This document shows positions 16,266 to 37,267 of a stretch of DNA of 53,294 bases, one piece after another. The position numbers and the translations under genes were made by a program. The notes beneath the pieces are model-generated. The model did not search any database, had not been told where the DNA came from, and saw only the letters and a list, made by a program, of their open reading frames with translations. Every line of letters begins with the position of its first letter. Within the stretch, counting starts at the first letter, position 1. This DNA is from Saprospiraceae bacterium. Its GTDB lineage: Bacteria; Bacteroidota; Bacteroidia; Chitinophagales; Saprospiraceae. The DNA is taken from the NCBI GenBank assembly GCA_013140975.1, contig JABFRV010000002.1, forward strand, positions 1 through 53,294, given 5' to 3'.

Positions 16266-18998
16266 ATGAAAAACTTAAATTTTCTCAATAACGCGCACCC
16301 TGCATATATAGAGAATTTGTTTAAGCAATATAGTGCTCATCCTGAGATGGTTGAACCGGAATGGAGACAATTTTTTCAGGGATATGAGTTAGGTTTATCT
16401 GAATCTGCACAGAATTCAGAACCGGAGACGCACAGTATTCATAAAGAATTGGCAATTTTTAGAATGGTTGAAGCATTTAGATCAAGAGGGCATTTGCTTT
16501 CTGATACAAATCCGATCAGGCAAAGAAAGGATCGAAAAGCCAACCTTGGATTGCATGATTTTGGTTTAGACGAGCATGATTTGCAAAGGAATTCAATTGT
16601 TGGTAAGACTATTAAAAACCAATCAACAACTGTTGAAGAATTATTTAAATATCTTAATTCTGTGTATTGTGGATCAATAGGGTTTGAATATAGCCACATT
16701 GAAGACCAGTCTAAAAGGAATTGGCTTCAGGAACGAATTGAAAGTATGACTCAACGTGTTAATTATGGATTAAGCGTTAACGAAAAGAAAAGAATATTGC
16801 ACAAGCTAAATGGTGCAGTAATGTTTGAAAAATTTCTTCATACGAAGTATGTCGGACAAAAAAGATTTTCATTGGAGGGCGGTGAAAGTACGATTACAGC
16901 AATAGATACAATTATTCAGGAGTCTTCAAATATGGGAGTAGAAGAAGTAGTTATTGGAATGGCTCATCGTGGAAGATTGAATGTTCTTGCTAATATTATG
17001 GGAAAAACATATGATCAGATATTTAGTGAGTTTGAAGGCACAGCAGTTCCTGATTTAAGTTTTGGTTCTGGCGATGTAAAGTATCATTTGGGGTATAGCT
17101 CTATGATTGAAACAGAAAATGGCAAAAATGTTTATTTGAAATTGGCGCCGAATCCATCACATCTTGAAGCTGTAAATCCGGTAGTAGAAGGTTTGTCACG
17201 AGCTAAAGCAGATTTATTGTATAAGTCAGATTACGATAAGATTCTTCCTATATTAATACATGGCGATGCAGCAGTCGCTGGACAGGGAATTGTATATGAA
17301 ACTTTACAAATGTCTCAGCTGGATGGATATTATACAGGAGGGTCAATACATTTTATCATAAACAACCAGATAGGATTTACGACGGACTTTGAAGACGCAC
17401 GTTCTTCTACGTATTCTACTTCTGTTGCCAGTTTGGTGCAAGCACCCGTTTTTCATGTGAATGGGGATGATCCTGAAGCAGTTGCATTTGTATCCAAGTT
17501 GGCAATAGAGTACAGGCAAGAATTCAATAATGATATTTTTATTGATATGGTCTGCTACAGAAGACATGGTCATAATGAAGGGGACGATCCTAAATTTACA
17601 CAACCCAAAATGTATGCATTAATTGCTGATCATCCTAATGTAAGAGATATATATGTAAAAGCGTTAAGTGAAAGAGGTGAAATAGAAAAAGCGCTTGCAA
17701 TAGAGATGGAAAAAGAATTCTGGTCTTTGTTACAGGAAAGATTAGATTATGTAAAACAGAAGCCACTTCCTTATAAATATCAAGAACCGGAACTCGCATG
17801 GAAAGAATTAAAGAAGAACCAGAGAAATATTGTAGGAAATAATCCGGATACTTCAATTACTACAGAAATGGTATCCATAATCATGGAGAAATTATTCACC
17901 TTTCCACCAGACTTTAATGTTCTTCCTAAAATTAATCGCTTAATTGAGGCTTCTAAAAAATTATTTGATAGCCAAAAACTTGACTGGGCTATTGCTGAAT
18001 TATTAGCATATGGAAGCATTTTAATGGAAGGGATGAATGTAAGAATGAGCGGTCAAGATGTAAAGAGGGGAACATTTTCTCATAGGCATGCAGTATTATA
18101 TGATGAATTACATAATACAGAGTATAATCGATTAAGCAGACTTTCGGAAAAACAGGGTCACTACTTTATCTACAATTCGTTGTTATCAGAATTCGCTGTT
18201 CTTGGATTCGAATATGGATATTCTCTTGCAAATCCACATCAATTGGTAATTTGGGAAGCGCAATTTGGGGATTTTGCAAATGGTGCTCAAGTCGTTTTTG
18301 ATCAATTTATTGCAACTGCAGAAGTCAAATGGAATCGCTTTAGCAATATAGTATTATTATTGCCTCATGGTTATGATGGACAAGGTCCTGAACATTCCTC
18401 AGCAAGATTGGAAAGATATCTTCAGGCAGCAGCGGAAAATAATATAATCATTGCGAATGTTACAACTCCTGCAAATTATTTTCACTTACTTAGAAGACAA
18501 GTTAAAGCAGATTTCAGGAAACCACTTATTGTAATGTCTCCTAAATCTTTATTAAGACACAGTCGCTGTGTTTCCAACATAGAAGAATTGACTGTTACAA
18601 AGAAATTTTCAGAGATTATTATTGATAGAATTGATACTACTGTAAATATTAATAAAGTTATTTATTGTTCAGGCCAGATTTATTATGATGTATCGCAGAA
18701 AGTGATTGATGAAGGACGAAAAGATATTGTCATTGTTCGGTTAGAACAATTATATCCATTTCCGTTGAATCAAATAAAAGAATTAATTACTCAGTATGGG
18801 GAGTCTCAGCATATCTGGGTGCAGGAAGAACCAAGAAATATGGGAGCGGCAGATTATATCTATATTAACTGGCCAAATAAGAATCTAAATGTAATAAGCC
18901 GTTCGGCTAGTGCTGCTACAGCTGTTGGTTATAAAAAAGTGCATGATGAACAGCTTGTTTCTATTTTAAAGCAGACGATTGGTTTAGTTGACGGTTGA
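16266..18998 (+). CDS. sucA: 2-oxoglutarate dehydrogenase E1 component
   Basis: The 910-residue product decarboxylates 2-oxoglutarate with thiamine diphosphate and passes the succinyl group to the lipoyl E2 subunit in the TCA cycle. The N terminus (FLNNAHPAYIENLFKQY) is the usual E1o start. The TPP/active-site segments are clear: GMAHRGRLNVL with His234, GDAAVAGQG at about 333-341, NNQIGFTT, the RRHGHNEGD loop, and the C-terminal QEEPRNMGA block. Length is normal. The E2 gene (sucB) is not next to it. The last two codons and the stop lie inside a GTTGACG heptamer tandem repeat, so the C terminus ...GLVDG is partly made of repeat sequence. Confidence 0.97.
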   Translation: MKNLNFLNNAHPAYIENLFKQYSAHPEMVEPEWRQFFQGYELGLSESAQNSEPETHSIHKELAIFRMVEAFRSRGHLLSDTNPIRQRKDRKANLGLHDFGLDEHDLQRNSIVGKTIKNQSTTVEELFKYLNSVYCGSIGFEYSHIEDQSKRNWLQERIESMTQRVNYGLSVNEKKRILHKLNGAVMFEKFLHTKYVGQKRFSLEGGESTITAIDTIIQESSNMGVEEVVIGMAHRGRLNVLANIMGKTYDQIFSEFEGTAVPDLSFGSGDVKYHLGYSSMIETENGKNVYLKLAPNPSHLEAVNPVVEGLSRAKADLLYKSDYDKILPILIHGDAAVAGQGIVYETLQMSQLDGYYTGGSIHFIINNQIGFTTDFEDARSSTYSTSVASLVQAPVFHVNGDDPEAVAFVSKLAIEYRQEFNNDIFIDMVCYRRHGHNEGDDPKFTQPKMYALIADHPNVRDIYVKALSERGEIEKALAIEMEKEFWSLLQERLDYVKQKPLPYKYQEPELAWKELKKNQRNIVGNNPDTSITTEMVSIIMEKLFTFPPDFNVLPKINRLIEASKKLFDSQKLDWAIAELLAYGSILMEGMNVRMSGQDVKRGTFSHRHAVLYDELHNTEYNRLSRLSEKQGHYFIYNSLLSEFAVLGFEYGYSLANPHQLVIWEAQFGDFANGAQVVFDQFIATAEVKWNRFSNIVLLLPHGYDGQGPEHSSARLERYLQAAAENNIIIANVTTPANYFHLLRRQVKADFRKPLIVMSPKSLLRHSRCVSNIEELTVTKKFSEIIIDRIDTTVNINKVIYCSGQIYYDVSQKVIDEGRKDIVIVRLEQLYPFPLNQIKELITQYGESQHIWVQEEPRNMGAADYIYINWPNKNLNVISRSASAATAVGYKKVHDEQLVSILKQTIGLVDG

Positions 18999-19035
18999 CG
19001 GTTGACAGTTGACGGTTGACGGTTGACGGTTGATT
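18987..19035 (+). repeat. GTTGACG heptamer tandem repeat across the sucA stop codon
   Basis: Seven 7-nt units begin at 18987, 18994, 19001, 19008, 19015, 19022 and 19029. Five are GTTGACG, the third is GTTGACA and the last GTTGATT. The sucA stop TGA (18996-18998) is inside the second unit. A change in copy number downstream of the stop would not alter the protein. Confidence 0.95.
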
Positions 19036-23370: not shown

Positions 23371-24852
23371 ATGCCAAAAATTATTCTTTTATTATTATTT
23401 TCATTATGTAGTGCAGTAAATTCTAAAAACTATCATGTTCAAACCCGCGGAAATGATGCAAATGATGGTTTGAGCTTTGCTACAGGATTCCTGACTATTC
23501 AGAAAGCGACGAATCTGGCTCAAGCAGGCGATAGTATTTTAGTTTATGATGGTAGCTATAAAGGCTTTGATCATTTTTATAAGAAAAGTGGTACAGCTAC
23601 TTTACCTATCGTCTATTTTGCTAAAGGAAAAAGTGTAATTATAAATCAATCCTGTGGCCGAGGAGGTGACGGAATAAATATTGAAGGGAATGATTATATA
23701 GAGTTGATTGGTTTCAAGGTTCAGTTTATTCCTGATATAACAGGAGGAGGGGAAGATGGAATAAGAGTTGTGTTAGCCAATCACGTGTCAGTTAGAAATT
23801 GTGAAGTTGACAGTTGTTATCGTGGAATATTTACTGGATATACTGATGATTTTCTAGCTGAGAATAATATTTGTAAGCGATCTTTTGGCGAACATGGTAT
23901 TTATGTTTCTAATAATAGTGATCGTGTTGTAATTCGAAATAATATTTGTTTTAATAACAGACGAGCGGCAGGAATTCAACTGAATCCAGACTTGAGTAGC
24001 GGAGGGCCTGGCATTTCCGGTGATGTAAAAATTTATAATAATATTTGTTATGGTAACCGGATTGGACTTAATCTTCAGGGAATTTATTATAGTGTGATAT
24101 ATAATAATCTAATTTATAATAATGGCTCAGGAGGTGGAGGAAACGGAGTCACATTTTTTCTAGGTGACGCTGCAACCGGTTGTAATGATGTTAAATTTTA
24201 TAACAATACAATTGTAGTTCCTTCTACTTCACAATGGGGAATTCTTGCAATCGATAGCGACAGTCTTCAAATCTATAATAATATTATAGTTAGTTTTTCA
24301 GTCAAGGGATCATTATATATTGATAAAAGTTGTACAAATTATCTGAGTGATTATAATGTTTTGAATGATAAGATGACCCAGGACGATGGAGCAACTTATA
24401 TTAATTTTCAACAATGGCAAAAACTTGGTTTTGATATTCATTCTATATTGGTGAAGGACAATAATATACTTTTCAGAGACTATTCAACACTCGATTTTCA
24501 ATTGTATGATAAATCCCCGGCAAGAAATTCCGGAAGTAATCAGGTTTCTGCTGTAGTGAAAGATGATTTATTGTCAATTTTGAGACCACAGGGAATTGCT
24601 TATGATATAGGATGTTATGAATTTCAGGAAATTACCGGAGTTCATAAAGTGAAAAATAAAGAAAAAATTAATTATATTTTGAAGCTAAATTCTCTTGAAA
24701 TCCTTAGCTATAAAAATAACGAAATTTATTCTCTTTATAATTTGCAAGGAATAAAAGTTCGTGAAGGATTTCACATGGATGTTGATGTGTTAAGTCCTGG
24801 TATATATATTTTAAGTAATGGCAAAAATGTTGATAAGATATTTATCCATTAA
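23371..24852 (+). CDS. Secreted right-handed beta-helix repeat protein
   Basis: The 493-residue protein has a signal peptide (MPKIILLLLFSLCSAVNS) followed by the YHVQTRGNDANDGLSFATGFLTIQ opening common to DUF1565-type parallel beta-helix proteins. Repeated coils rich in N-N-I-C or Y-N-N (VIRNNICFNN, KIYNNICYGN, VIYNNLIYNN, KFYNNTIVV, QIYNNIIV) run from about residue 100 to 310. The C terminus (EIYSLYNLQGIKVREG to FIH) resembles a T9SS sorting domain. Such proteins often bind or cleave polysaccharides (pectate-lyase-like fold), but no catalytic set is recognised, so only a carbohydrate-related surface role is inferred. The neighbour downstream is another secreted protein. Confidence 0.85.
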   Translation: MPKIILLLLFSLCSAVNSKNYHVQTRGNDANDGLSFATGFLTIQKATNLAQAGDSILVYDGSYKGFDHFYKKSGTATLPIVYFAKGKSVIINQSCGRGGDGINIEGNDYIELIGFKVQFIPDITGGGEDGIRVVLANHVSVRNCEVDSCYRGIFTGYTDDFLAENNICKRSFGEHGIYVSNNSDRVVIRNNICFNNRRAAGIQLNPDLSSGGPGISGDVKIYNNICYGNRIGLNLQGIYYSVIYNNLIYNNGSGGGGNGVTFFLGDAATGCNDVKFYNNTIVVPSTSQWGILAIDSDSLQIYNNIIVSFSVKGSLYIDKSCTNYLSDYNVLNDKMTQDDGATYINFQQWQKLGFDIHSILVKDNNILFRDYSTLDFQLYDKSPARNSGSNQVSAVVKDDLLSILRPQGIAYDIGCYEFQEITGVHKVKNKEKINYILKLNSLEILSYKNNEIYSLYNLQGIKVREGFHMDVDVLSPGIYILSNGKNVDKIFIH

Positions 24853-24898
24853 GAGCCTATTCTTACCCAACTAAAACGAATAATTTTACGTCATCTAT

Positions 24899-24906
24899 TA
24901 AATTTG
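24899..24906 (+). promoter_or_regulatory. TAAATTTG -7 element placed 6 nt before the start codon
   Basis: TAnnTTTG matches at 24899-24906 and ATG follows at 24913, so the predicted first transcribed base is at the start codon (leaderless mRNA). The TTG at 24904 is part of this element, not a start. Confidence 0.4.
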
Positions 24907-24912
24907 TATTTT

Positions 24913-25755
24913 ATGACGAAATTGATCATTGTTTCTTTTATTTTATGTATTGGTAATTTGACTGCCGGTAGTTTTATTGAAGAACATAATATTAATTGTG
25001 GGGATAAGGTAGAAATTGATAAGTTGGGATACCCTACCTGGAATCCTGCTGTTATATTTAAATTGCCAAAGCATGGATATGCATCTTTAACTTCAAAAGA
25101 TCTTGCGCCACAAAAGCTTGTTTATTCCGCACCAAATTGTGTTAACATAACGGATACTGTTGTTGTATTATGTGCAAGAGCTACTCAAATAACCTGTGAT
25201 ACCGGCTATTATATTTTTAAAGTTCATTGTAATTCGGTGGATACAGCTGAATTCATTGTTGTGTCTCAATTGAAATGTAATGACACTTTAACAATAGAAA
25301 ACCTGAATGCTTTTCAAATCCCAGTAATTAAAGATTCAGCAAAATATGGATCTTCAGAACTTATTTATTTCCCTACGGATGGTGTAGCTGTAAAGTATAT
25401 TCCTAATAAAGACTATGAAGGGCCAGATTTTATCAAGATTAATTTACGCAATAACCGGATCATTTTCTACCTTATAAATGTGTATTGTAATTCCTTAAGT
25501 TCAGTAGATGAAATTCCTAAAAATAAACTTGATGTTAAGGCATATATTCAAAAGTCAAATGTAGTAATTCAAGCGCCTGAGAAAATACATAAGCTACATT
25601 TATGGACACTTGAAGGCAATACGATTTATTTTGAAGAAGAGTCGATAAATGAGAACACTTTGCATGTTCGGTTCCGGGATGATTATAAAGGGCTTATAAT
25701 TGGAAACGTGAAAACCCAAAGCGGATCTGCTTTTATTAAACTTATCAAGCATTAA
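24913..25755 (+). CDS. Secreted protein of unknown function with possible sorting tail
   Basis: From ATG 24913 the protein has 280 residues with a signal peptide (MTKLIIVSFILCIGNLTAGS). It contains two Cys-bearing beta-rich halves with a similar plan (INCGDKVEIDKLGYP ... YIFKVHCNSVD and LKCNDTLTIENLNAF ... LINVYCNSLSS), which suggests an internal duplication of about 100 residues. The final 70 residues (IQKSNVVIQAPEKIHKLHLW to KLIKH) have the strand pattern of a T9SS tail. No family is recognised. It follows the beta-helix gene after 60 nt but seems to have its own promoter. Confidence 0.75.
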   Translation: MTKLIIVSFILCIGNLTAGSFIEEHNINCGDKVEIDKLGYPTWNPAVIFKLPKHGYASLTSKDLAPQKLVYSAPNCVNITDTVVVLCARATQITCDTGYYIFKVHCNSVDTAEFIVVSQLKCNDTLTIENLNAFQIPVIKDSAKYGSSELIYFPTDGVAVKYIPNKDYEGPDFIKINLRNNRIIFYLINVYCNSLSSVDEIPKNKLDVKAYIQKSNVVIQAPEKIHKLHLWTLEGNTIYFEEESINENTLHVRFRDDYKGLIIGNVKTQSGSAFIKLIKH

Positions 25756-25853
25756 GTATTAGGAGATTTAAATAGAAAGACTTTTCAAGACTTTAATTTC
25801 ACAATCAAATTTTTAATTTGATGTAATTAATATCGTTAAAAACCGTAGTTGAT

Positions 25854-27371
25854 CTATCGAATATAATTTCTAGATTTCGATACAACCACCTTATAGAACT
25901 GATTCACTTCAGGCGATATTTTTAATAATATAACTGCAGGTATAAAAATGAGCGCCCAGATTATACTTTTAATACTAACCTGGATTAGTGCTGAAATGTA
26001 CATATGACTTCCAATCCTTAAGTCGAGATTATTCAATAAATACCATGCACTGAATCCTAAAAAAATACTGAGCACTACAGCTTTTAATGTATTCATTGTA
26101 AAGGGTTGAATACCTAGCTTATAATAAATAAATATGTATCTGGAGAAATTGAAAAGGAATAATACTGCAAGTCCTGATATGGCGATTCCTTTCATCCCCA
26201 TACTCTGAATCAGATAATAATTTAGAATGACCTTTACGATTGAAACAACGATAATTGTATATAGATTAAAGACAAAGTATTTGGAGAGGATAATTATCTC
26301 TGAGTTACAACCCGTTATCATATCTAATAATCTTCCTACTCCAAGAAAGAGGACAATGTACATGGCTGAATCGTAACCTAATCCTTCAGGCATGAGCTTC
26401 AGCATTTCCGGAAAGACAATTAAAAGTAAAGTAAAAATGAAAGCACCAATAATATAATTATTCAATGAAGTCTGCCGATAATGACGAAGAACTTCATCCC
26501 ACCTTTTATGACGAATTGCAGAAGAAAGTAAAGGCGTTACAACAGCAATTATTGCCGCAAATGGAACCGACATAATATTTATGATGTAGTAACCAATATT
26601 AAATTTTGCTACTTCAGCCTGTCCTTTAAGTGCGCCTAACATGATTGTGTCAATATAAAGAATTATGAGCAAAAATGAAGAACCCAATATTGCAACGCCT
26701 CCATATCGAATCATTGTTTTATAAACTCTTTGTGTTAGTTTGCTAATTTTAAATTTGGCATTCCAGCCATCAAAATATTTTATGTAGATCAGTATACTAA
26801 TTGAACTTATGGTTGTTAAAGTGCAAAACCAAAAAAAATACTGACTAAAAGATAGCAGGTTGAATGCGAATAGAATTATTAAAAGAGTATTTCCAATTTT
26901 AGGAATGAGTTCATTGATTGCTTTCGGAAATATTGTTCTTAAATGAGCAACGCAAAAAGCAGAGGCCACTGATCCAAGCATTGTAAAAAATGTAAGATAA
27001 AACATTAAGGGTATATACGATTTTAACTCGGAACTGTGCTGAAAGTAGAATTGATAAAAAACTCCCTTTAGTAAAAAAGTAATGAATCCAAAAATTAAAA
27101 AACCTATTAATGGTAAACCAAAGACAATCCATATCAGATCTTTCGAATTGTTACGTTGGTATAAAGGAAGGAAGCGAAATAATATCGAACTTGCTCCTAA
27201 TTCAGAAAATCCAGCCATTAGAACTGCAAGTGTTAGAATTGAGCGAGTCATCCCTATTTCATCCGGGGAGAAATATTTGGGCATTAATACCAATAAGTTG
27301 ATGTAACCGATAAACATCGATACATATACTAGTATTGAAGAATAAATACTTTGTTTCCTTACTATACCCAT
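25854..27371 (-). CDS. Polysaccharide/oligosaccharide flippase (Wzx-like, MATE/MOP superfamily)
   Basis: The 505-residue protein is mostly hydrophobic with about 12-14 predicted membrane spans, beginning YSSILVYVSMFIGYINLLVL and the PDEIGMTRSI loop seen in Wzx-type lipid-linked oligosaccharide translocases. It would flip undecaprenyl-linked glycans across the inner membrane. It lies 39 nt downstream of the YfhO-family gene on the same strand, so the two are likely one operon. Glycosyltransferase and asnB-like genes occur within 10 kb. The glycan is unknown. Confidence 0.88.
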   Translation of the reverse strand: MGIVRKQSIYSSILVYVSMFIGYINLLVLMPKYFSPDEIGMTRSILTLAVLMAGFSELGASSILFRFLPLYQRNNSKDLIWIVFGLPLIGFLIFGFITFLLKGVFYQFYFQHSSELKSYIPLMFYLTFFTMLGSVASAFCVAHLRTIFPKAINELIPKIGNTLLIILFAFNLLSFSQYFFWFCTLTTISSISILIYIKYFDGWNAKFKISKLTQRVYKTMIRYGGVAILGSSFLLIILYIDTIMLGALKGQAEVAKFNIGYYIINIMSVPFAAIIAVVTPLLSSAIRHKRWDEVLRHYRQTSLNNYIIGAFIFTLLLIVFPEMLKLMPEGLGYDSAMYIVLFLGVGRLLDMITGCNSEIIILSKYFVFNLYTIIVVSIVKVILNYYLIQSMGMKGIAISGLAVLFLFNFSRYIFIYYKLGIQPFTMNTLKAVVLSIFLGFSAWYLLNNLDLRIGSHMYISALIQVSIKSIIWALIFIPAVILLKISPEVNQFYKVVVSKSRNYIR

Positions 27372-27410
27372 TCATATGAAGGTAACTGTTTCGCTACCAT
27401 TGTACTGATC

Positions 27411-29876
27411 TTAATTTTTTCTGGTATTCAGCCATACACTTAGACCAATAAGGCACATTAATAAAATTGAACCTATTGCAGAAAGTGTTTCACCGGTAAA
27501 ATATGAAGAAGGTTGGAATTTTAGTACAATTTCATGTTTGCCAGATGGGACACGTAATGCACGTAAAGAATAATTAGACCTAAATAATGGAGTTTCTTTT
27601 CCATCAACAGTTGCAGTCCAACCCAAATCAGGTCCATACCATATTTCAGATAGAACAGCTATTTGATCAGAAGCTGATTCTGAAGTATATTTTAGCTCGT
27701 TAGGCGAATAAGATGTAAGTTGAATATTTCCAGATCCATCACCGTTTGAACCCGCAATCTGTTTCCATTCATTATGAATAATTGCAGTATTCTTTAAATT
27801 ATTTTTACTCAGAGAAGCAATTTCTTCATCTGCGGAGTTTACCCATTGAACATTGCTTACGAACCAAGCTGCTCCATTGGCAGCTGTATTTGGCAATACA
27901 ACTTCCTTTCCGGGTTCTCCAAAAATAAAATACTTTGTGTTGAGCATGTTTAAAACCTGAAGTTGATTCATGGATTGAATAAAACTACTGTCATTTGGAT
28001 TTCCTGAAAATGTCTGAAGAATTTGCTGCATTTTCTTCATCTCTGCATCAAGGCATTGATCGATAATATCCTGATATCTGCGCAATTTAGCAGGATGATA
28101 ACCTCCGACAGTATGGTGATAATATGAAGGAATAGAACTGTTATAGGTATTCACCGTTGCGTCGTACACTCTGTATCCTGGTGCTTTGTCTGAAAGAATT
28201 TGTTCATCAACTTTTCTCTTCTGAAAAATTGAATTTCCTGCACTAGTACTCATAAAGTCATCATGAGTTAAATATCGGCTATTGATTGAAAATATATCAA
28301 ACAATGCTATGGCGCCGAAAACACCTAAAAATAAATTTGATTTTAACTTTCCAAGGTTATAAAAATAAATCAATGAAGAACCAGCGATTACTATTAATAA
28401 ACCCCGTAAAGCATCACCACTCATCATCGCCTCACGTAAATTTATTAGAACTTTTGTCTGATCATCAGTAGCACCTTTGCTCATATCAAAAAATCCGGGA
28501 CCAATAATCCAAAAGAAAGCACATATCGCTCCTAATATACCTGCACTGTAATACAAAGCCTTTTTCACAGCATTGGAATCGAATTCTTTTCGATACAATT
28601 TTGCCAATGTGAAGAATGCGAATATTCCCATGTACAATGCAACAATTGTAAGTATTGAACTCGGGGCACGGAACTTGTTTAAGAAAGGAAGTGTGTTAAA
28701 TAGTAATTCGTTCAGCAATTCAAAATGTCTACCCATAGACATTAGCATTAGAAATGCGGTACTGATAGCGAACCACCATTTGAGTTTTCCATCAATGAGA
28801 AAACATCCCATCAAAAACAATAATGCTATAAGAATACCGATATAGAAGGGACCTCCAGTGAATGGAAGGTCACCCCAATACGTAGGAACTTGTGTTGTTT
28901 TGTTAACTGGGATTCTATTTTCTTTCAATGCTGACTTTAAGGAAGAATTATTCATTGCTTTTTCTCCACTTGCACCTCCTACAACTCCAGGTATTATTGT
29001 AGCAGTTAAATCAAGAATTCCGTTGCTCCATGCCATTGCATAATCCCACTCTAATCCACTTTTGTTAGATGCTTCACCAGTAGATGCTGATGTGGAAAGT
29101 ACAGATCCACCTCTCATTGTTTGTGTTACATATTCTTTTGTTGTCAGAAGTGTAGTTGCGGATCCCATTAAACCTATTACAGTTACAGCTGCTAATAATC
29201 CGGTATTAATTGAGAAATCTTTCCAATTTTTATTTTTAATTGTCTCATAAAGTATGAATGCAATTAAAGGTACAATTCCAAGTAAGATATAATACGTCAT
29301 TTGAACGTGATTATTCACAACTTGCATTCCAAATCCAAATCCGAATAATGCAAGACCCAACCAACGGTTCTTCGTGTATGTAGCCCAAATTCCAGTCAAC
29401 ACGCATGTTGCAAATCCTATTACTGCGAGCTTGGTAAGGTGACCGGCTTCTAATAATAAAATATTTCCAGTGCTGAATGCAAGAACTACTGATGCTATTG
29501 CTGCTACGTAGGAACCTAATCCAAAAAACAACAATCCTATATAACTAAAGAGCATAAGAGCAAAGAAAGTATTAATTGGAGGTTTCGCTAATTTGAGAGG
29601 TATTAGTTGGAGGTAGTTTAGAAAGTTCGTTTTTGATTCCATAGAAGTTTGGTATAAAGGCATACCACCAAACATATTGTTGGACCATAATGCCACGTCA
29701 TCATTGGCTTTGTTATATTCTATGCTTTCATGAGCCATTGCCTGCCATGATTTAAAGTCAGATTGCTGTAAAACCTTACCCTTCATTGCCGGTAAAAAAT
29801 ATAAAGTGGCAATGACATAAAATAGAGCAACTATAATAAGGTGAGGAATTAGCTTTTTGAAATCAAATTTATTCAT
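27411..29876 (-). CDS. YfhO-family integral membrane protein
   Basis: The 821-residue protein has an N-terminal hydrophobic region with many membrane helices (IIVALFYVIATLYFLP; the DFKSWQAMAHESIEY loop; NNMFGGMPLYQ, a hallmark of the family), then a large extracytoplasmic region (about 530-790) with YYHHTVGGYHPAKLRRYQDI and WYGPDLGWTATVDGKETPLFRSNYSLRALRVP, and a final helix. YfhO-type proteins are GT-C-like and in some Firmicutes glycosylate lipoteichoic acid; in Bacteroidota the substrate is not settled. It precedes a Wzx-like flippase, in keeping with a role in surface glycan assembly. Confidence 0.9.
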   Translation of the reverse strand: MNKFDFKKLIPHLIIVALFYVIATLYFLPAMKGKVLQQSDFKSWQAMAHESIEYNKANDDVALWSNNMFGGMPLYQTSMESKTNFLNYLQLIPLKLAKPPINTFFALMLFSYIGLLFFGLGSYVAAIASVVLAFSTGNILLLEAGHLTKLAVIGFATCVLTGIWATYTKNRWLGLALFGFGFGMQVVNNHVQMTYYILLGIVPLIAFILYETIKNKNWKDFSINTGLLAAVTVIGLMGSATTLLTTKEYVTQTMRGGSVLSTSASTGEASNKSGLEWDYAMAWSNGILDLTATIIPGVVGGASGEKAMNNSSLKSALKENRIPVNKTTQVPTYWGDLPFTGGPFYIGILIALLFLMGCFLIDGKLKWWFAISTAFLMLMSMGRHFELLNELLFNTLPFLNKFRAPSSILTIVALYMGIFAFFTLAKLYRKEFDSNAVKKALYYSAGILGAICAFFWIIGPGFFDMSKGATDDQTKVLINLREAMMSGDALRGLLIVIAGSSLIYFYNLGKLKSNLFLGVFGAIALFDIFSINSRYLTHDDFMSTSAGNSIFQKRKVDEQILSDKAPGYRVYDATVNTYNSSIPSYYHHTVGGYHPAKLRRYQDIIDQCLDAEMKKMQQILQTFSGNPNDSSFIQSMNQLQVLNMLNTKYFIFGEPGKEVVLPNTAANGAAWFVSNVQWVNSADEEIASLSKNNLKNTAIIHNEWKQIAGSNGDGSGNIQLTSYSPNELKYTSESASDQIAVLSEIWYGPDLGWTATVDGKETPLFRSNYSLRALRVPSGKHEIVLKFQPSSYFTGETLSAIGSILLMCLIGLSVWLNTRKN

Positions 29877-29901
29877 ATATATATTTTTCTAATATGTATC
29901 A

Positions 29902-29909
29902 CAAAAGTA
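29902..29909 (-). promoter_or_regulatory. TACTTTTG -7 element for the YfhO-flippase unit
   Basis: The minus strand reads TACTTTTG 25 nt before the start at 29876. No -33 TTG at normal spacing is visible. Confidence 0.4.
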
Positions 29910-30131
29910 CAAAATCCTTTATCAATTTATGAGAATGGATTCAAAGTCGGTGACCTGTTTGGCAATTTATAGAATTGAAATGGTCTTCAAGGGTTCATGA
30001 GTTTTTATATTTTTTGTTTTAATTGCAATATTATTTAAAGACACCTTTATCGAATTAATAATTTATTCACATCAGTTTTTGCTCCCTTAAATTATTGATA
30101 ATTAAATACTTATATTATAAAACATTAAAAC
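29910..30131. other. AT-rich non-coding spacer upstream of the repeat array
   Basis: No open frame or RNA gene is seen between the YfhO promoter and the repeat array. A weak, uncertain additional repeat unit may begin at 30097 (GATAATTAAATACTTA). Confidence 0.5.
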
Positions 30132-30357
30132 GACGTTTATAAACTTCAAAAAATATATAAAAAAGATTAATAAGAACATCAAAAAAAAGTATATTTGCAG
30201 TATAAAAAAATCAATAACAATATAAAATAGATGAATAAATACATCAAATAATATAATAATAGAATTATATAAAAATCAAAAATGATATAAAATGAATAAT
30301 AAAACAATCAAAAATAAATAAAAATGATGACTATAAACATCATTAATTAACTTTGTG
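30132..30357 (+). repeat. Seven-unit degenerate tandem array, 32-33 bp period, each unit with a 4-8-4 dyad
   Basis: Units start at 30132, 30165, 30197, 30230, 30262, 30294 and 30326 (steps 33, 32, 33, 32, 32, 32). Each begins with a 16-mer made of a GA-type half site, 8 AT-rich bases and an ATC-type half site: GACG/CTTC, GATT/CATC, GCAG/AATC, GATG/CATC, GAAT/AATC, GAAT/AATC, GATG/CATC. Five of seven continue TCAAA after the dyad. The remaining 16-17 nt is A/T only or nearly so. The ATG at 30360 falls 34 nt after the last unit start. The period is close to three helical turns, so all dyads face the same side of the DNA. It looks like an operator or nucleation array for a dimeric protein. Confidence 0.8.
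30190..30197 (+). promoter_or_regulatory. TATATTTG -7 element inside the repeat array
   Basis: It matches TAnnTTTG at the junction of the second and third repeat units; transcription would start near 30204 with a ~155-nt leader carrying four further units. A second match, TAACTTTG at 30348-30355, lies 4 nt before the ATG. Confidence 0.35.
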
Positions 30358-30359
30358 GA

Positions 30360-31565
30360 ATGGATTCTTGGGAGAATTTAAGGCAGGAGCATAACGAGTA
30401 TCTACAATCTGTAGATGAATCGTTTAGCAGACAATCCAGGTGGAATGACATGGATTGGGCTGAAAAGCTGCTTTTTATCAAAGGACCAAGGGGAGTAGGG
30501 AAGAGCACAATGATTCTTCAGTACATACGTGACAAATTTCAATTTGATGCGAAAGCTTTGTATGTGACAATGGACAGTCTTAATTTATCAGGAATGTCAA
30601 TTCTGGAAATTGCTAAGAAACACCAGAATCTTGGAGGTACACATTTATATATAGATGAGATACACAAATACGAGGGTTGGAGTAAAGAACTTAAGAATAT
30701 TAATGATCTCTATAAGAAGTTGCATGTAGTAGTGTCAGGCTCCTCAATATTAAAAATGGATAAGGGAGAAGCAGATCTAAGCAGACGTGCTGTAACATAT
30801 AATATGGAAGGCCTTTCTTTCAGGGAATATATATGGTTTAAGACAGGAATAGTTCTTGAAACTTTGAAACTGGAAGATATAGTAAAATCTCACGTAGATC
30901 TTTCAGTTGAAATTAGCAATAAGATCAATCCTTTATTGCTACATAAAGAATATCTGCAATTTGGGTATTATCCATTTTTTATGCAAGGCACGAAAAGCTT
31001 TCGACAAAAACTCAATAATGCAGTAAATCAAAGTATTGAGCAAGACATTATGCAGATTAATGAGATCGAAGTAAATAATATTGGAAAAATTAAAAAGTTA
31101 TTATATCATCTTGCTATTAGTGTTCCCTTTAAACCGAATTCAACGAAACTTGCTGAGAGTCTTGGACTTAATAGGCAGACATTGAATCTATATCTTTTTT
31201 ATTTGACCGAAGCAAAAATAATTCAAAGTATTCTTGCTTCCGGAAAGTCATACAGCATGATTTCCAAACCCGATAAAATCTATTTAAATAATACGAATTT
31301 ATGTTACCTGGTACCAGAGAGCAGGGTCAATACAGGGAATCTAAGAGAAACTTTTTTTGCAAATCAACTGAGTAAATTACATAATGTAAATACATCAGAC
31401 AAAGGAGATTTTCTCATAGATAATAAATATATTTTTGAAGTAGGAGGTCCGAATAAGAAGTTTACACAAATAGCAGATTTGCCTTTTTCTTATACAGTTG
31501 TTGATGATGAAATAACCGGATATGGAAATAAAATTCCGTTATGGTTATTTGGAATGTTATATTAA
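30360..31565 (+). CDS. AAA_14/DUF4143 family ATPase
   Basis: The 401-residue protein has an N-terminal P-loop ATPase domain with Walker A GPRGVGKS at residues 42-49, Walker B LYIDE at 96-100 followed by IHKY, and a sensor segment VSGSSILKMDKGEADLSRR. The middle is a winged-helix-like region (LNRQTLNLYLFYLTEAKI). The C terminus has the nuclease-like fold fragment typical of DUF4143 (NKYIFEVGGPNKKFTQI, then GNKIPLWLFGML). Members are widespread, often in multiple copies, and have no settled biochemical role. It stands alone between the YfhO-flippase unit and the asnB cluster, directly behind the phased repeat array, and is the best candidate to bind or be controlled by it. Confidence 0.88.
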   Translation: MDSWENLRQEHNEYLQSVDESFSRQSRWNDMDWAEKLLFIKGPRGVGKSTMILQYIRDKFQFDAKALYVTMDSLNLSGMSILEIAKKHQNLGGTHLYIDEIHKYEGWSKELKNINDLYKKLHVVVSGSSILKMDKGEADLSRRAVTYNMEGLSFREYIWFKTGIVLETLKLEDIVKSHVDLSVEISNKINPLLLHKEYLQFGYYPFFMQGTKSFRQKLNNAVNQSIEQDIMQINEIEVNNIGKIKKLLYHLAISVPFKPNSTKLAESLGLNRQTLNLYLFYLTEAKIIQSILASGKSYSMISKPDKIYLNNTNLCYLVPESRVNTGNLRETFFANQLSKLHNVNTSDKGDFLIDNKYIFEVGGPNKKFTQIADLPFSYTVVDDEITGYGNKIPLWLFGMLY

Positions 31566-31622
31566 AGATAATGAGTATTTCAGATAGTGTGTTTTTTTAT
31601 TAATAATTTTCATCATGTACTT

Positions 31623-31646
31623 CTTGGTCCGCGGGAGCGGGCCAGG
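31623..31646. other. GC-rich 10-bp hairpin in AT-rich intergenic DNA
   Basis: CTTGGTCCGC (31623-31632) pairs with GCGGGCCAGG (31637-31646) over ten positions, two of them G-T, around a GGGA loop. It is by far the most GC-rich spot in the neighbourhood. No T-run follows (GAGGTGCAAGG), so it is not a standard intrinsic terminator; a REP-like palindrome or a foreign remnant is possible. Confidence 0.6.
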
Positions 31647-31789
31647 AGGTGCAAGGATGAATTGAATACGAATTGCTTATCAAGCAAAGTTCTTCGTAAG
31701 AAAAAATCAGCGATTTAAGAAAATTTAGTTTATTTATATTATAGTGAGAATATTTATTGCATTTGTAACCATTATAGCTTTTATAGCAT

Positions 31790-31797
31790 TAATTTTG
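31790..31797 (+). promoter_or_regulatory. TAATTTTG -7 element 5 nt before the asnB start
   Basis: It matches TAnnTTTG; the first transcribed base would fall at or next to the ATG at 31803. A TTTG at 31762-31765 lies 24 nt upstream, slightly farther than the normal -33 spacing. Confidence 0.4.
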
Positions 31798-31802
31798 CGT
31801 TG

Positions 31803-33755
31803 ATGTGTGGTATTGCGGGAATTTTTCATTTTGATGATAAAAAAGTTAATTCTGATTGTATCAGAAGAATGAATGATATTGCGCAACATCGCGGACCAGA
31901 TGATGAAGGATTTGCGATGATCAATACTGTAACGAATAATGTTCAAGTATTACTCGGGCATCACTCAGACAAAAACTTGGTGAATCGTTTTCCACAAATC
32001 AGTAATTTTTATAATCAGCATTATAACCTGGTTCTTGCATTTAGAAGATTAGCGATAGTAGATCTTAGTATTGCTGGCCATCAACCCTTCTCAGATGAAA
32101 GTGGAAATTATTGGGTAACTTTTAATGGAGAAATCTATAATTATATAGAACTCAGGAATGAACTTCAGAACTACGGATTTCAATTCAGAACTTCCAGTGA
32201 TACGGAAGTTTTGTTAAAAGCATATATTCATTGGGGAGAGGAATGTATTTCTCATTTTGTTGGAATGTTTGCTTTTGTAATTTGGGATGGAGTAAAACAA
32301 TTAATGTATGGTGCCCGTGATCGATTTGGTGTAAAGCCATTTAATTATTATATTGATGAAGATATATTCATATGGGGATCAGAAGAAAAGCAAATTATAG
32401 CCAGCGGATTACTAAATTTTCAAGTTCATCAAAATTCAATCAACCGTTTCTTTCTTCTTAATCAACTACATGATAGTGAAGAGACATTTGTAAATAATAT
32501 TAAAAGAATTCCAAGTGGTCATTGTTTTACAATAAAAAATAAAAAATTTAGTATCGTAAAATATTGGGATCTGGATCCACTTCAAGATCAATCCTATTTG
32601 AGTAAAGAGGATAGAATCGAAAAATTTCGATCCCTTTTTACTGAAGCGGTTAAATTACGATTGCGATCTGATGTTCCAATTGGTATAGCATTAAGTGGTG
32701 GATTGGATTCGTCCAGTATTGCAATGATATCTAAAGATCTTTTGACAAGTAATGTAAAGACATTCTCGGTTTATTATGAACAAGATAAAAAGTATGATGA
32801 AAGAGAATTTATAAAAGCCATTCTAGATACCGGAGGGTTTGACCCAATTTTTTATACGCAGGATGAACAGATAAATTTTGATGCGATTCGGAATTGGGTA
32901 TTTCACCAAGATGGACCAACATCCGGAGCAAGTCCGTATAGCGCATATTTAAATTACAAGAATGTAAGAAAATCAGGAATCATAGTGTTGTTGAATGGAC
33001 AGGGTGGTGATGAAATTCTAGCAGGATATCCATATTATTTTAAGTATTTACTGGCAGATTATATTAAACATGGGAAATTTGGAACAATACTTAAATGCTT
33101 AAATCAATGGCGCAAAGATCAATCCCTTGAACAGAGTCTTAAGCATCTTGGAGGCGGAATTCTTAATTTGTTCCTGTCTCAGGAAAGTATGATTAAAAAG
33201 GAAACATCTAAGTATTGCACTACAGATCTATATTTATGTAAAGAAAGTTTTAAAGTTCAAAGTACATTCAATCTGAAATTTAAATCCGAATTGAAACAAG
33301 TATTATATGATACATTAAAAGTTCGAATGTTGCCACATTTATTGCATTGGGAAGACAGGAACAGTATGGCATGTTCTATTGAAAGCCGGGTTCCGTTTTT
33401 GGATCATCGTTTGGTTGAATTTTCATTTTCTTTACCTGATGATGAAAAAATTGATTCTGGTATGACAAAAGTTATTTTGAGAAAAGCAATGGAAGGAATA
33501 CTGCCTGAAAAAATTATCCATCGAAGAGATAAGAAAGGATTTGGAACCCCAACGGACATTTGGACAAAAGGAACATTACATAATAATATTAGTGACCTGA
33601 TTCATTCAAAGTCTATTGAATCAAGAGGAATATGGAATATAAAGAGCCTGCGTCGCTCTTTTCAAGAAAATCAGTTTGGCGAAAACGAATTGTGGAAAAT
33701 AGTAACAACGGAATTGTTTATCCAGGAATTTGAAAAACTAAACACTAGAAATTAA
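31803..33755 (+). CDS. asnB: Asparagine synthase (glutamine-hydrolysing) / amidotransferase
   Basis: The 650-residue protein has a class II glutaminase domain: MCGIAG with the nucleophilic Cys at residue 2, FNGEIYNYIELR and DRFGVKPF. It is followed by the synthetase domain with PP-loop SGGLDSS at 298-304 and GQGGDE. ATG 31803 is certain, because Cys2 must become N-terminal; the TTG at 31800 is excluded. It uses Gln, ATP and Asp, or a related acid. Since a methyltransferase and a glycosyltransferase follow within a few bases, it may instead amidate a sugar acid or small molecule, as asnB-like genes in glycan loci often do. It is slightly longer than E. coli AsnB (554), which fits the AsnB family found in polysaccharide clusters. 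Confidence 0.9.
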   Translation: MCGIAGIFHFDDKKVNSDCIRRMNDIAQHRGPDDEGFAMINTVTNNVQVLLGHHSDKNLVNRFPQISNFYNQHYNLVLAFRRLAIVDLSIAGHQPFSDESGNYWVTFNGEIYNYIELRNELQNYGFQFRTSSDTEVLLKAYIHWGEECISHFVGMFAFVIWDGVKQLMYGARDRFGVKPFNYYIDEDIFIWGSEEKQIIASGLLNFQVHQNSINRFFLLNQLHDSEETFVNNIKRIPSGHCFTIKNKKFSIVKYWDLDPLQDQSYLSKEDRIEKFRSLFTEAVKLRLRSDVPIGIALSGGLDSSSIAMISKDLLTSNVKTFSVYYEQDKKYDEREFIKAILDTGGFDPIFYTQDEQINFDAIRNWVFHQDGPTSGASPYSAYLNYKNVRKSGIIVLLNGQGGDEILAGYPYYFKYLLADYIKHGKFGTILKCLNQWRKDQSLEQSLKHLGGGILNLFLSQESMIKKETSKYCTTDLYLCKESFKVQSTFNLKFKSELKQVLYDTLKVRMLPHLLHWEDRNSMACSIESRVPFLDHRLVEFSFSLPDDEKIDSGMTKVILRKAMEGILPEKIIHRRDKKGFGTPTDIWTKGTLHNNISDLIHSKSIESRGIWNIKSLRRSFQENQFGENELWKIVTTELFIQEFEKLNTRN

Positions 33756-33758
33756 AGA

Positions 33759-34814
33759 ATGGACATTGAAAGGATAAAAGAATTTTCCAAAACGTTAGAA
33801 AGCGAACTAATGAATATGGATTTTCGAAAATTAGGTTTAAGTGAAGCGGGTGTAGCATACTATGAATTTAATTTGGGAAAATTAAAATTTAATAACTTTT
33901 CAAATGCAATATCACTATTTAGAATTATAGAGAAAAGTGCAAAACCTATAAATGAGTTATGTATTATTGATCATGGTGCCGGAATAGGATTTTTTGGATT
34001 ATTGGCAAAAAAGTGCGGCGTAGGAAGTATAGTTTGCCACGATTTAAGTGAGGAAATGATTCACGATTGTAAAATACTATCTGATAGGCTGGGGTTATCG
34101 TTTGAGCATTATGTAGTAGGAGACACAGATATACTAGTGCGCTATTGTTTGGAAAATAAATTATTCGTTGATGGATTGTCATCACGGAATGTTATTGAGC
34201 ATATTCCGGATTTAGAAGTATTTTTCAATTATTTATCTCAGCTGCCAACAAAAAAGTTAGTGATGATGATTACTACTTCAGCAAATGTCCATAATCCTAT
34301 CGTACATCAAATACATAAAAAGTTGCATCGAGAATTTGAAGAAGTTGGATCAAATGAAGACATGATGCGAAGTAAAATTGATAAGTCAAAATCAGGAAGA
34401 AACATTCGAAGGAAAATTATTACTGCAGAAATTACAGATGTCAGTGATGAAAAATTAGAAGCTTTAATTACAAATACAAGAGGGTTAACGCGACAAGAAA
34501 TAGAATTATGTATAGAAGATTTTAAGACTTCTGGAATTATTCCATCTTTAAAGGAGAAATTGACAAATACCCGAGATCCTAATTCAGGAACATGGGTTGA
34601 ACGTTTGGTTCCTTTTGATACTTATCTGAAGATATCATCTAAGTATGGATTTAGCGTTGAAAGCCTTCCGGGATTTTATAATCAGCATTATAAGAATTTA
34701 TTATTGAATATAGCTGGTAAGGTAGTGAATCTTATAATTTATAGTATCCCATCTCTGCATAAACAATTATCACCATTTCTGGCTATGAGATTTGTATTGC
34801 AAAAAGATCAATGA
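33759..34814 (+). CDS. SAM-dependent methyltransferase in the asnB cluster
   Basis: The 351-residue protein has motif I IIDHGAGIGFFG at about 68-79 and VCHDLSEEM with the ribose-binding acidic residue, which define a class I SAM fold. The C-terminal half (SLKEKLTNTRDPNSGTWVERLVPF and LPGFYNQHYKNLL) is not one I recognise; the hydrophobic final segment may contact the membrane. It begins 3 nt after asnB and overlaps the glycosyltransferase by 4 nt, so all three are co-translated. The substrate is likely a glycan intermediate, which is inferred from position only. Confidence 0.8.
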   Translation: MDIERIKEFSKTLESELMNMDFRKLGLSEAGVAYYEFNLGKLKFNNFSNAISLFRIIEKSAKPINELCIIDHGAGIGFFGLLAKKCGVGSIVCHDLSEEMIHDCKILSDRLGLSFEHYVVGDTDILVRYCLENKLFVDGLSSRNVIEHIPDLEVFFNYLSQLPTKKLVMMITTSANVHNPIVHQIHKKLHREFEEVGSNEDMMRSKIDKSKSGRNIRRKIITAEITDVSDEKLEALITNTRGLTRQEIELCIEDFKTSGIIPSLKEKLTNTRDPNSGTWVERLVPFDTYLKISSKYGFSVESLPGFYNQHYKNLLLNIAGKVVNLIIYSIPSLHKQLSPFLAMRFVLQKDQ

Positions 34815-36112
34815 AGAAAGTATTAATTATAACATACTACTGGCCGCCAAGTGGTGGCCCCGGCGTTCAACGTTGCTTATATTTTGTCAAATATTTGAGG
34901 GAGTTTGGATGGGAGCCAATTGTGTATACAGTTGATAAGGGAGAATTTCCGTATTATGATTATTCTTTAGAAAAGGAAATACCGGATGGGATACAAATTT
35001 TAAAGCACAAGGCGGTTGAACCTTTTTCCATTTATAAAAAGTTGGTAGGATTAAAAAAGGAAGACAAATTAAAGCCGAATGTAGTAGTTGAAAAGTCTAA
35101 GAGGCCATTGCTCCATTCCATTGCAACCTGGATTAGAGGTAATATTTTTATTCCAGACGCCAGAATGTTATGGATTAAACCTTCCGTTAAATTCTTATCT
35201 GCCTATTTATCTGAGAATAAAACTGATGCAATATTGACATCTAGTCCTCCACATTCCTTGCAATTAATTGGATTGGAGTTATCCAAGAAATTCAACATCC
35301 CCTGGTTGGTTGATTTGAGAGATCCATGGACAAGAATATTTTTTGCTGACAAACTCAAAATGAGTGCCTATGCTAAGAAAAGGAATTTAGAATATGAAAA
35401 GAATGTTTTATCACAAGCTACATCTATAGTTACTGTTAGTCAGTCTTGTGCGGAAGGTTTCAAAGAAATATGTGGACGTTTACCTTATGTAATAACAAAT
35501 GGATTTGATAAAGTAAGTGAATCCATTATTCGAAATGATGATAATATTATAATTGCATATGGCGGTACTCTTTCAGGAGACAGAAATCCGGAAAAATTAT
35601 GGATTGAAATTAAAAATTATATAGATAAGAATGTCTCTTTAAAATCAAAAATTAAATTGCAGTTCTTCGGAGCAATTGATCCGGCAGTTTATGAGTCAAT
35701 AAAGTCAAATAAATTAGGAGACTACCTCGAAACATTTGATGCCTTATCTCATGATGAATATTTAAAACGAATGAGTCTGGCCGATATATTATTGCTAGTT
35801 GGGACTAAAAATGACAAAGGAGTAATTACCGGAAAGTTTTTTGAATATCTTGCAATGAAAAAACCAATAATTTCAATAAGTCCTAATGATTCTGATGTCG
35901 AAATAATATTAGAACAAACACAATCCGGTAAAAACGCCGGCTATGAGGATGTTTTAAAAATTAAAGAAATAATAAATTGGGCTATTGATATTTGTAAAAA
36001 CAAAGAAACTTTTCAACCGAATGCAAATGAAATAGAAAAGTATAGTCGAAGAATACTTACAAAAAAATTGGCAGATTTACTTGATGCGTTCAGCGATAGT
36101 AAGTACAATTGA
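34811..36112 (+). CDS. Glycosyltransferase (GT4-like)
   Basis: The 433-residue protein begins MKKVLIITYYWPPSGGPGVQR, the standard N terminus of a GT-B fold glycosyltransferase of the GT4 type, with the acceptor-side motif WLVDLRDPW, YGGTLSGDRNPEKLW at the C-domain start, and GKFFEYLAMKKPIISI, the nucleotide-sugar-binding block. It overlaps the preceding methyltransferase by 4 nt. Its 3' end overlaps that of the convergent lhgO by 36 nt. Acceptor and sugar are unknown. Confidence 0.9.
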   Translation: MKKVLIITYYWPPSGGPGVQRCLYFVKYLREFGWEPIVYTVDKGEFPYYDYSLEKEIPDGIQILKHKAVEPFSIYKKLVGLKKEDKLKPNVVVEKSKRPLLHSIATWIRGNIFIPDARMLWIKPSVKFLSAYLSENKTDAILTSSPPHSLQLIGLELSKKFNIPWLVDLRDPWTRIFFADKLKMSAYAKKRNLEYEKNVLSQATSIVTVSQSCAEGFKEICGRLPYVITNGFDKVSESIIRNDDNIIIAYGGTLSGDRNPEKLWIEIKNYIDKNVSLKSKIKLQFFGAIDPAVYESIKSNKLGDYLETFDALSHDEYLKRMSLADILLLVGTKNDKGVITGKFFEYLAMKKPIISISPNDSDVEIILEQTQSGKNAGYEDVLKIKEIINWAIDICKNKETFQPNANEIEKYSRRILTKKLADLLDAFSDSKYN

Positions 36113-37267
36113 TAAAGAAGCAGTAGCTGCAGGTGAAGGAGCATTGCACACATTTATGATATTTCCTGTTTCGAAAATGACGAAATCATCAATTATGGAG
36201 CCTTCCGGATTGCATGCTGAGGCTCTGACTCCAGAACCTCCTGGGACAAGGTCTTCTTCTTGTATTTCTGGAATCAACTTTTGAAGCGATTTAGTAAAAA
36301 GATGTTTCGAAAAACTTCTTTTATATTCTTCAAATCCCTGACGCCAGAATTTCCGTGCAAGTTTTCTAAATCCGGGATAACTTAACGTCTCAATTAACTC
36401 GAAGATATTCACATCTGATTTTTTATAACCTTCTCTTTTAAGCGCTAAAACTGCATTTGGACCAGCTTCTAAAGCTCCATCAATCATCCGCGTAAAATGT
36501 ACTCCAAGAAATGGAAAATTGGGGTCTGGGGTTGGGTAAATTAAATTTTTTACTAGATGTTTTTTCTCCTCTTTTACTTTATAGTATTCTCCACGAAAAG
36601 GAAGAATTTGCAGGGGAATATCTTCTTGAGTTAATCTTGCAATTTTATCACTATACAATCCAGCACAATTTATTATTGTGTCAGTTGAGTAGCTATTATT
36701 CTCTGTCTGAATTTGTAAAGCATTTTTATCTCTATGAATGAATTTTACTCTTTGATTCTTTATTATTCTTCCGCCTTTAGATTCAATTATTTCTAAATAT
36801 TTTTTGCCCACTTCTGTGTAATCTATTATACCGGCTTGAGGAACGAATATGCCTTTAATTCCTGCTACATGCGGTTCAATTTCCTGAAGTTCATTTTTAG
36901 AAACTAACTTAATGCCTTGTAGTTGATTTGCCAGACCTCGTTCATAAATATTGTTCAAAGGCAATAATTCTGATTCCTCGGTAGCTACAATTATTTTACC
37001 ACAAATCTCATGACGAATATTATATGTTCTACAGAAATCCAATAACATTTTATAACCTCTAATACAATTTTGAGCTCGAAGACTTCCCGGTTTATAGTAT
37101 ATTCCTGAGTGTATGACACCTGAGTTATTTCCTGTTTGATGTTTACAAATTTCAGATTCTTTTTCAAGAATTGTTAATTGTAAATCAGGATGTAGCTCAA
37201 GAAGTTGATATGCAGTAGCAAGTCCTACAATTCCTGCACCTATAATAGTTACTTTCTTTGAAGCCAT
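36077..37267 (-). CDS. lhgO: L-2-hydroxyglutarate oxidase
   Basis: The 396-residue FAD enzyme begins KKVTIIGAGIVGLATAYQL, a dinucleotide-binding site at residues 4-22, followed by TGNNSGVIHSGIYYKPGSLRAQNC, strongly characteristic of LhgO/L2HGDH. FPFLGVHFTRMIDG and GGSGVRASACNPEG are further family blocks. It oxidises L-2-hydroxyglutarate, a side product of dehydrogenases acting on 2-oxoglutarate, back to 2-oxoglutarate and passes electrons to the membrane. It starts 9 nt after the upstream membrane-protein gene and ends 36 nt inside the convergent glycosyltransferase gene. Confidence 0.92.
   Translation of the reverse strand: MASKKVTIIGAGIVGLATAYQLLELHPDLQLTILEKESEICKHQTGNNSGVIHSGIYYKPGSLRAQNCIRGYKMLLDFCRTYNIRHEICGKIIVATEESELLPLNNIYERGLANQLQGIKLVSKNELQEIEPHVAGIKGIFVPQAGIIDYTEVGKKYLEIIESKGGRIIKNQRVKFIHRDKNALQIQTENNSYSTDTIINCAGLYSDKIARLTQEDIPLQILPFRGEYYKVKEEKKHLVKNLIYPTPDPNFPFLGVHFTRMIDGALEAGPNAVLALKREGYKKSDVNIFELIETLSYPGFRKLARKFWRQGFEEYKRSFSKHLFTKSLQKLIPEIQEEDLVPGGSGVRASACNPEGSIIDDFVIFETGNIINVCNAPSPAATASLSIVLTIAERIK

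Follow-up and report, generated by a model that had tools for sequence, protein, structure and literature searches.

A phased dyad array as a likely self-operator upstream of an AAA_14/DUF4143-type ATPase gene

Introduction

Operators consisting of dyads that are placed over the promoter of their own regulator, with a specificity that differs between copies, are found in toxin-antitoxin operons and in the C proteins of restriction-modification systems. In STAND/NLR ATPases, the winged helix is usually regarded as a regulatory and not as a DNA-reading element. Features reminiscent of both groups are encountered in an ATPase gene and its upstream region, which are part of the window, a term that here refers to the entire analysed stretch of 53,294 nucleotides from contig JABFRV010000002.1 of a Saprospiraceae bacterium. 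With toxin-antitoxin systems and C proteins, the loci of this ATPase share dyads over their own promoter and copy-specific operator words. Unlike in these systems, a single protein would carry DNA-binding, ATPase and nuclease-like parts, and there is no recurrent partner gene among 90 ATPase loci. The likeness to the STAND/NLR ATPases CED-4, RPP1 and Roq1 and to the DNA-binding NLR Rx1 is a match in fold, which shows no function, and in contrast to these proteins, binding of the window ATPase would be sequence-specific and aimed at its own promoter. Also among its closest known counterparts are the archaeal AAA+ ATPases SSO1545 (2fna) and PABY2304 (2qen), for neither of which we know of an operator. 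Self-operators are of a known kind, and what did not turn up among titles and abstract openings of the open-licence literature is their occurrence in this family, a conserved geometry combined with differing words, and a link between a recognition helix and operator bases.

By profile, the window ATPase belongs to PDC-S01 of PADLOC, a tentative phage-defence candidate whose mode of action is to our knowledge not known. All 25 members of our alignment A1 match the PDC-S01 profiles, with the window protein reaching a best E of 1.1e-27. Excerpts of PMC12988326 list PDC-S01 among the commonest defence candidates and describe such candidates as mostly awaiting validation. A self-operator or DNA-sequence specificity, as proposed here, is unmentioned in the excerpts of this article and of PMC13356809, and no operator of the DUF4143/PF13635/PF13173/COG1373/PDC-S01 family appears in titles and abstract openings of the open-licence literature.

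Results

Domain organization of the ATPase

The gene (30360..31565, on the forward strand like all features described below) encodes a protein of 401 residues, which is classified as AAA_14/DUF4143-type ATPase by profile matches including those to PDC-S01. Its AAA_14 P-loop domain (PF13173; residues 35-157, 30462..30830, E 1.5e-26) scores 93.4 bits against a cut-off of 27, and this domain is matched at E 1e-3 by 25 of 25 members of A1. The match to DUF4143 (PF13635) amounts to 25.0 bits (27.0 in a second scan), which is under the cut-off of 28.1 (E 1.7e-5), with 20 of the 25 members matching at E 1e-3. A winged helix-turn-helix (residues 238-291, 31071..31232) is predicted in the AlphaFold model with a mean pLDDT of 92.3. 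It contains helices at 238-254, 261-268 and 272-284, the last of which is the recognition helix (31173..31211). This helix starts with Arg 272, which is 95% conserved, and contains Gln 273 and Asn 276, which covary with operator bases, while Asn 271 is located just before it. The C-terminal domain (31272..31562) is assigned a restriction-endonuclease-like fold by weak matches only, and fold searches of this domain gave no match standing out. It contains an E360-V-G362-G363 motif, with E360, G362, G363 and K366 being invariant in 75 sequences. The canonical PD-(D/E)XK catalytic motif includes E-x-K, which is absent from the C-terminal domain of the window protein, where no lysine is found at the usual place. 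The fold of the ATPase may resemble the NBD-helical-winged-helix arrangement of oligomerizing STAND/NLR ATPases, and ORC/Cdc6 proteins are among its structural matches. No other close member of the subfamily was found in the genome, whose four further DUF4143 genes reach only 36-97 bits with the subfamily profile, far below the window protein.

Seven candidate operator units in the window

The initial annotation had placed seven 16-nucleotide dyads directly upstream of the gene, and we find all seven sites at the starts that it had assigned. In an 18-nucleotide register, which was taken from relatives, the candidate operator units extend from 30131 to 30342 with successive spacings of 33, 32, 33, 32, 32 and 32 bp in a region of 85% A+T. 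Taken alone, unit 1 (CGACGTTTATAAACTTCA, 30131..30148), unit 4 (AGATGAATAAATACATCA, 30229..30246), unit 5 (AGAATTATATAAAAATCA, 30261..30278) and unit 7 (TGATGACTATAAACATCA, 30325..30342) have positive dyad scores (6.3, 4.8, 2.2 and 6.8), whereas those of unit 2 (AGATTAATAAGAACATCA, 30164..30181), unit 3 (TGCAGTATAAAAAAATCA, 30196..30213) and the weak dyad of unit 6 (TGAATAATAAAACAATCA, 30293..30310) are negative (–4.5, –5.0 and –1.0). The proposed dyad symmetry thus holds for the former four units and fails for the latter three.

A spacing of 32 or 33 bp across the subfamily

Orthologues were collected from 100 relatives and from overlapping samples of 295 genomes of the class and 398 genomes of the family, together with 80 loci from named genomes, which are the best 80 of 555 and originate mostly from Bacteroidota, with a few carrying labels such as Spirochaetes, Desulfuromonadales, Geobacter or Omnitrophota. 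The 243 orthologues used for the analysis of spacing are those with an alignable N-terminus and start and at least 180 bp of upstream sequence after removal of duplicates. In 178 of them, the best-scoring pair of similar 18-nucleotide dyads is separated by 32 (67 loci) or 33 bp (111 loci), compared to 70 of 1215 shuffled upstream regions. Both outcomes that would have refuted the initial annotation are thus absent, as such arrays precede numerous homologous genes and are not reproduced by shuffling. Upstream of other open reading frames of the same loci, this spacing is best in 59 of 628 cases, which is above the 5-6% of shuffles, and some of these frames may be false predictions or border on the same intergenic DNA. 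The remaining 65 orthologues have a different best spacing, which in 12 cases is 29 bp. Among L039, L189, L249, L261, L263, L278 and L292, some orthologues contain dyads at 29 bp with good scores and others show a spacing of 58-59 bp, which is twice 29, pointing to what may be a second array geometry.

The unit is defined by an 18-nucleotide TG-NNNN-N6-NNNN-CA pattern with frequencies of 0.85 for T and 0.83 for G at the outer positions and variable inner bases. Its number was determined in the 168 orthologues with a best spacing of 32/33 and a score over 8. As upper bounds, since four offsets were tried per extension step at a 97.5% threshold, 159 of these loci contain two to four units, 137 contain two or three and 4 contain six or more, and in 16 of the 168 chains the last unit starts at or inside the gene and is probably false. 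Long arrays are found among near relatives of the window, with six units in L008 and L243 and seven in L052, but distant branches likewise include arrays with five to eight units, such as the eight of L115. Latter is the longest array among the 168 loci and follows a strict 33-bp step from –278 to –47 relative to the start codon.

In 79 distant homologues, whose start codons were crudely set as the first ATG, the best spacing is 32/33 in 28 cases compared to 34 of 790 shuffles, and their dyad words differ. The spacing rule therefore probably reaches beyond the subfamily, though not to all members, and spacing by three helical turns may be a property of the larger family. In a distant DUF4143 paralogue of the same genome (L004, on G000:C52), the 18-mer AAATTTATCGCCACTTTT is present twice at a spacing of 32 bp about 100 bp upstream of the gene, as a perfect direct repeat and not as a clear dyad.

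Overlap of the units with the predicted promoter

The –7 box of Bacteroidota promoters has the sequence TAnnTTTG and is located at –12 to –5 from the transcription start according to excerpts of PMC9723704, and the same consensus is given in excerpts of PMC7366714. With promoters predicted from this consensus only, the box starts exactly 6 nucleotides before a unit in 85 of the 168 loci, such that its final TG coincides with the first TG of the unit, whereas 32 other offsets, covering shifts from –16 to +16, are never found in more than 6 loci. The other 83 loci have a box elsewhere (61) or no box (22). In the commonest layout, one unit would span about –6 to +12 and the preceding one about –39 to –21. 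This geometry is also found in the window, where the possible promoter suggested by the initial annotation corresponds to the –7 box TATATTTG (30190..30197), which starts 6 nucleotides before unit 3 and whose TG forms the first two bases of the unit. From the position of the box, transcription would start near 30202 and the resulting leader of about 158 nucleotides would hold four units, beginning with unit 4. Unit 3 would consequently overlap with the –7 box and the predicted start, and unit 2 would cover the –33 region. A second –7-like box (TAACTTTG, 30348..30355), four bases before the ATG and with an offset of +23 from the start of unit 7, does not show the usual distance to a unit, would give a nearly leaderless message and is less likely to be the main promoter.

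We consider it likely that the array constitutes a multi-unit self-operator of the downstream ATPase, to which the protein would bind cooperatively as dimers on 18-nucleotide dyads to repress its own expression. Binding, dimerization, cooperativity and repression in place of activation are features that we infer from the computed array, its spacing, its overlap with the promoter, the covariation between helix and operator and the different words of paralogues. In the proposed mechanism, each unit would be held by two winged-helix domains, and adjacent dimers, being 32/33 bp or about three helical turns apart, would reside on the same face of the DNA, where neighbours could cooperate via their AAA+ domains. 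With one unit on the –33 region and another on both the start site and the last bases of the –7 box, RNA polymerase would be blocked, and the probable autorepression would limit the amount of an ATPase that is STAND-like and has a nuclease-like tail. Repression is suggested by the position of the units, which would also be compatible with activation. It appears unlikely to us that the ATPase binds the array but activates its gene, or mainly uses the DNA as a platform for the nucleation of oligomers or the storage of an inactive state. The seven units of the window, of which four follow the likely promoter, exceed the needs of simple occlusion and the fold may resemble that of oligomerizing STAND/NLR ATPases, but the overlap with the –7 box in 85 of 168 loci places a unit in an occluding position and 137 of these loci contain a set of only two or three units. 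If the array acts as repressing self-operator, its seven units in the window may confer tighter cooperative repression, form a roadblock in the leader or serve as storage platform for inactive ATPase.

Relationship between recognition helix and operator bases

Direct reading of the site by the protein predicts that changes in its recognition helix are accompanied by changes in the variable bases. We have thus analysed covariation in the 168 loci, which correspond to an effective number of 131, between protein columns and half-site positions. The top five of 3573 signals relate residue 271 to base 5, 276 to base 3, 273 to bases 3 and, in fourth place, 4, and 271 to base 4, with columns 299, 61 and 223 ranking just under these residues, which are located at the beginning of the recognition helix in the winged helix of the ATPase itself. 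The same three residues take the top five or six places at all three score cut-offs that were applied, including stricter ones. When identity is regressed out in 84 disjoint nearest pairs, the highest ranks among 337 columns are those of 271 and 273, in this order, followed by the non-helix columns 74 and 46, and residue 276 alone ranks only 140. The helix triple shows a partial r of 0.46, while none of 5000 random triples exceeds 0.42. Operator agreement between sequences with 33-50% identity increases from 0.32 to 0.39, 0.46 and 0.55 with zero to three helix residues shared. The correlation in these non-independent pairs is 0.254, and the highest value among 1000 random triples is 0.095. The relationship is illustrated by recurring combinations of residues 271/273/276 and words, such as NNV with TGCTTA, HNN with TGCA and SPY with TGTAAA. 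The window, L052 and the 42% identical L020 combine Q273/N276 with TGAT, and base 5 of the window (G or T) only partly fits N271, which mostly accompanies T. Residues 271, 273 and 276 would accordingly help to read the variable bases, and it is in turn expected that differing copies have differing operators with little cross-regulation.

Such differences are found between paralogues, a few of whose operators look spurious (e.g. L172). None of 41 within-genome pairs have similar operators, where identity-matched pairs from different genomes predict only 0.6, and operators of paralogues differ on average at 3.21 of 5 positions compared to 2.87 in matched pairs. With 0 of 41 against 0.6 expected, there is no signal of selection for insulation among paralogues, and the differing words reflect ordinary divergence.

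Nucleoid proteins commonly target phased A/T-rich DNA, and the 85% A+T of the array would suit such a protein or another cellular regulator for which the ATPase gene is merely a target. We regard this explanation as very unlikely, since a shared regulator would need one site, while the words differ between paralogues of the same genome and track the recognition helix of the encoded protein. Very probably, it is the ATPase itself that binds to the promoter of its gene and controls it. The autoregulatory operator and the landing site for the ATPase, which the initial annotation had listed as separate options, would then be the same thing, with bases covarying with the helix of the ATPase in units that overlap the promoter.

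Gene neighbourhood

Among 90 ATPase loci, the largest common cluster of non-ATPase neighbours is present in 4, and two or more ATPase-like open reading frames are found in 6. In the window, the ATPase and eight proteins around it (23371-37267) include no replication initiator and no ParA/ParB by Pfam. An iteron-like nucleation or replication site, as considered in the initial annotation, or a centromere-like partition site, is extremely unlikely on these grounds. Although phased direct repeats beside the gene of a DNA-binding AAA+ protein resemble iterons and ORC/Cdc6 proteins appear among the structural matches, neither an initiator nor a partition protein is found among these nine proteins and no family of neighbours extends beyond 4 of 90 loci. 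Elsewhere in the window, a 7-nucleotide tandem repeat (GTTGACG, 6.7 copies, 18987-19033) is located at the end of the open reading frame 16266-18998, and a 441-nucleotide repeat of 6.5 copies with 95% matching (50303-53294) continues up to the end of the contig and may encode a section of a very long protein of repetitive sequence.

The array compared to shuffled DNA and to a sister species

Autocorrelation of the window array peaks at lags 65 (0.601) and 32 (0.541), the former of which exceeds the highest value obtained at any lag in 500 dinucleotide shuffles (0.573), whereas the latter alone does not. Tandem Repeats Finder detects periods of 32 and 65. The seven-unit chain of dyads at 32/33 scores 9.7, compared to a shuffle mean of –14.3 with a standard deviation of 5.6 and a maximum of 11.7 (500 shuffles), and if any step from 24/25 to 40/41 is allowed, 1 of 120 shuffles equals the window. 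Taken alone, the dyad symmetry of the window is only moderately unusual. The positions of G and C show no 32-bp period (Rayleigh p of about 0.25-0.30 at 32-32.4 bp), their best period being 10.8 bp with an uncorrected p of 0.002. A DNA similarity search finds no second match to the array region in the own genome. Exact TGATG-N8-CATCA sites occur 13 times in this genome, one of them inside the array, compared to 1 for the reversed word, and the 12 sites outside may constitute a small regulon in trans.

Strong evidence for the array being real is comparative. In G002, a genome of the same genus, an orthologue with 71% identity (L008, which is outside the 168-locus set) is located between the same neighbours, YfhO and asparagine synthase, and is preceded by six units on a 32/33-bp grid in DNA that is T-rich where the window is A-rich. 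The motif built from the window scores 49.9 on this upstream region, where 300 shuffles reach at most 15.3. This score was obtained with steps of 32/33, the best of ten step pairs, followed by 31/32 (34.4) and 33/34 (24.0), while the remaining pairs never exceed the score of one unit. Conversely, a motif of the six G002 units finds the seven units of the window (107.5 against 23.1) in a test that is partly circular, as the G002 units were chosen with the window motif. In both species, the same –7 box TATATTTG is found at the third unit from the upstream end, as judged by eye for G002. Chance periodicity of AT-rich intergenic DNA, for which at least 1 of 500 shuffles matching the dyad symmetry of the window and the lacking 32-bp period in G/C positions could be quoted, is of practically negligible probability in view of the transfer of the window motif to the sister species and the family-wide 32/33 spacing. 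G002 is the only one of eight other genomes of the genus with an orthologue. By the coordinates available, the other seven do not contain the head-to-head arrangement of YfhO and asparagine synthase found in the window, and no clean insertion boundary was seen.

Discussion

With a self-operator and a statistical connection of three helix residues to the operator word, binding sites could be predicted for many copies of PDC-S01, and sequence-specific DNA binding would be placed in a STAND/NLR-like ATPase. The differing words may explain how the same genome accommodates several copies, and the loci may offer Bacteroidota a natural collection of operator-regulator pairs that differ in their words. 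The option of a storage platform for the seven units leads to a more speculative view, which we consider doubtful, where AAA_14/DUF4143 (PDC-S01) proteins would act as promoter-tethered STAND sentinels. Held as inactive dimers on their own array by their own helix-DNA code, they would be released by a trigger, which would free the nuclease-like effector and at the same time de-repress the gene, with different words allowing several of them to coexist without crosstalk.

The distribution of this widespread ATPase gene is patchy. At E 1e-60, matches are present in 46 of the 295 genomes sampled from the class and in 77 of the 398 sampled from the family. Many of the matching genomes contain two or more copies, numbers that are lower bounds as at most 6 and 4 candidates were scored per genome in the two samples. 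Copies of the gene, which is mostly found in Bacteroidota, are also present on contigs with the labels Spirochaetaceae, Treponemataceae, Geobacter, Desulfuromonadales, Francisellaceae, Omnitrophota and Syntrophobacterales (L072, L084, L090, L118, L125, L126, L127), hinting at transfer between phyla or at binning errors.
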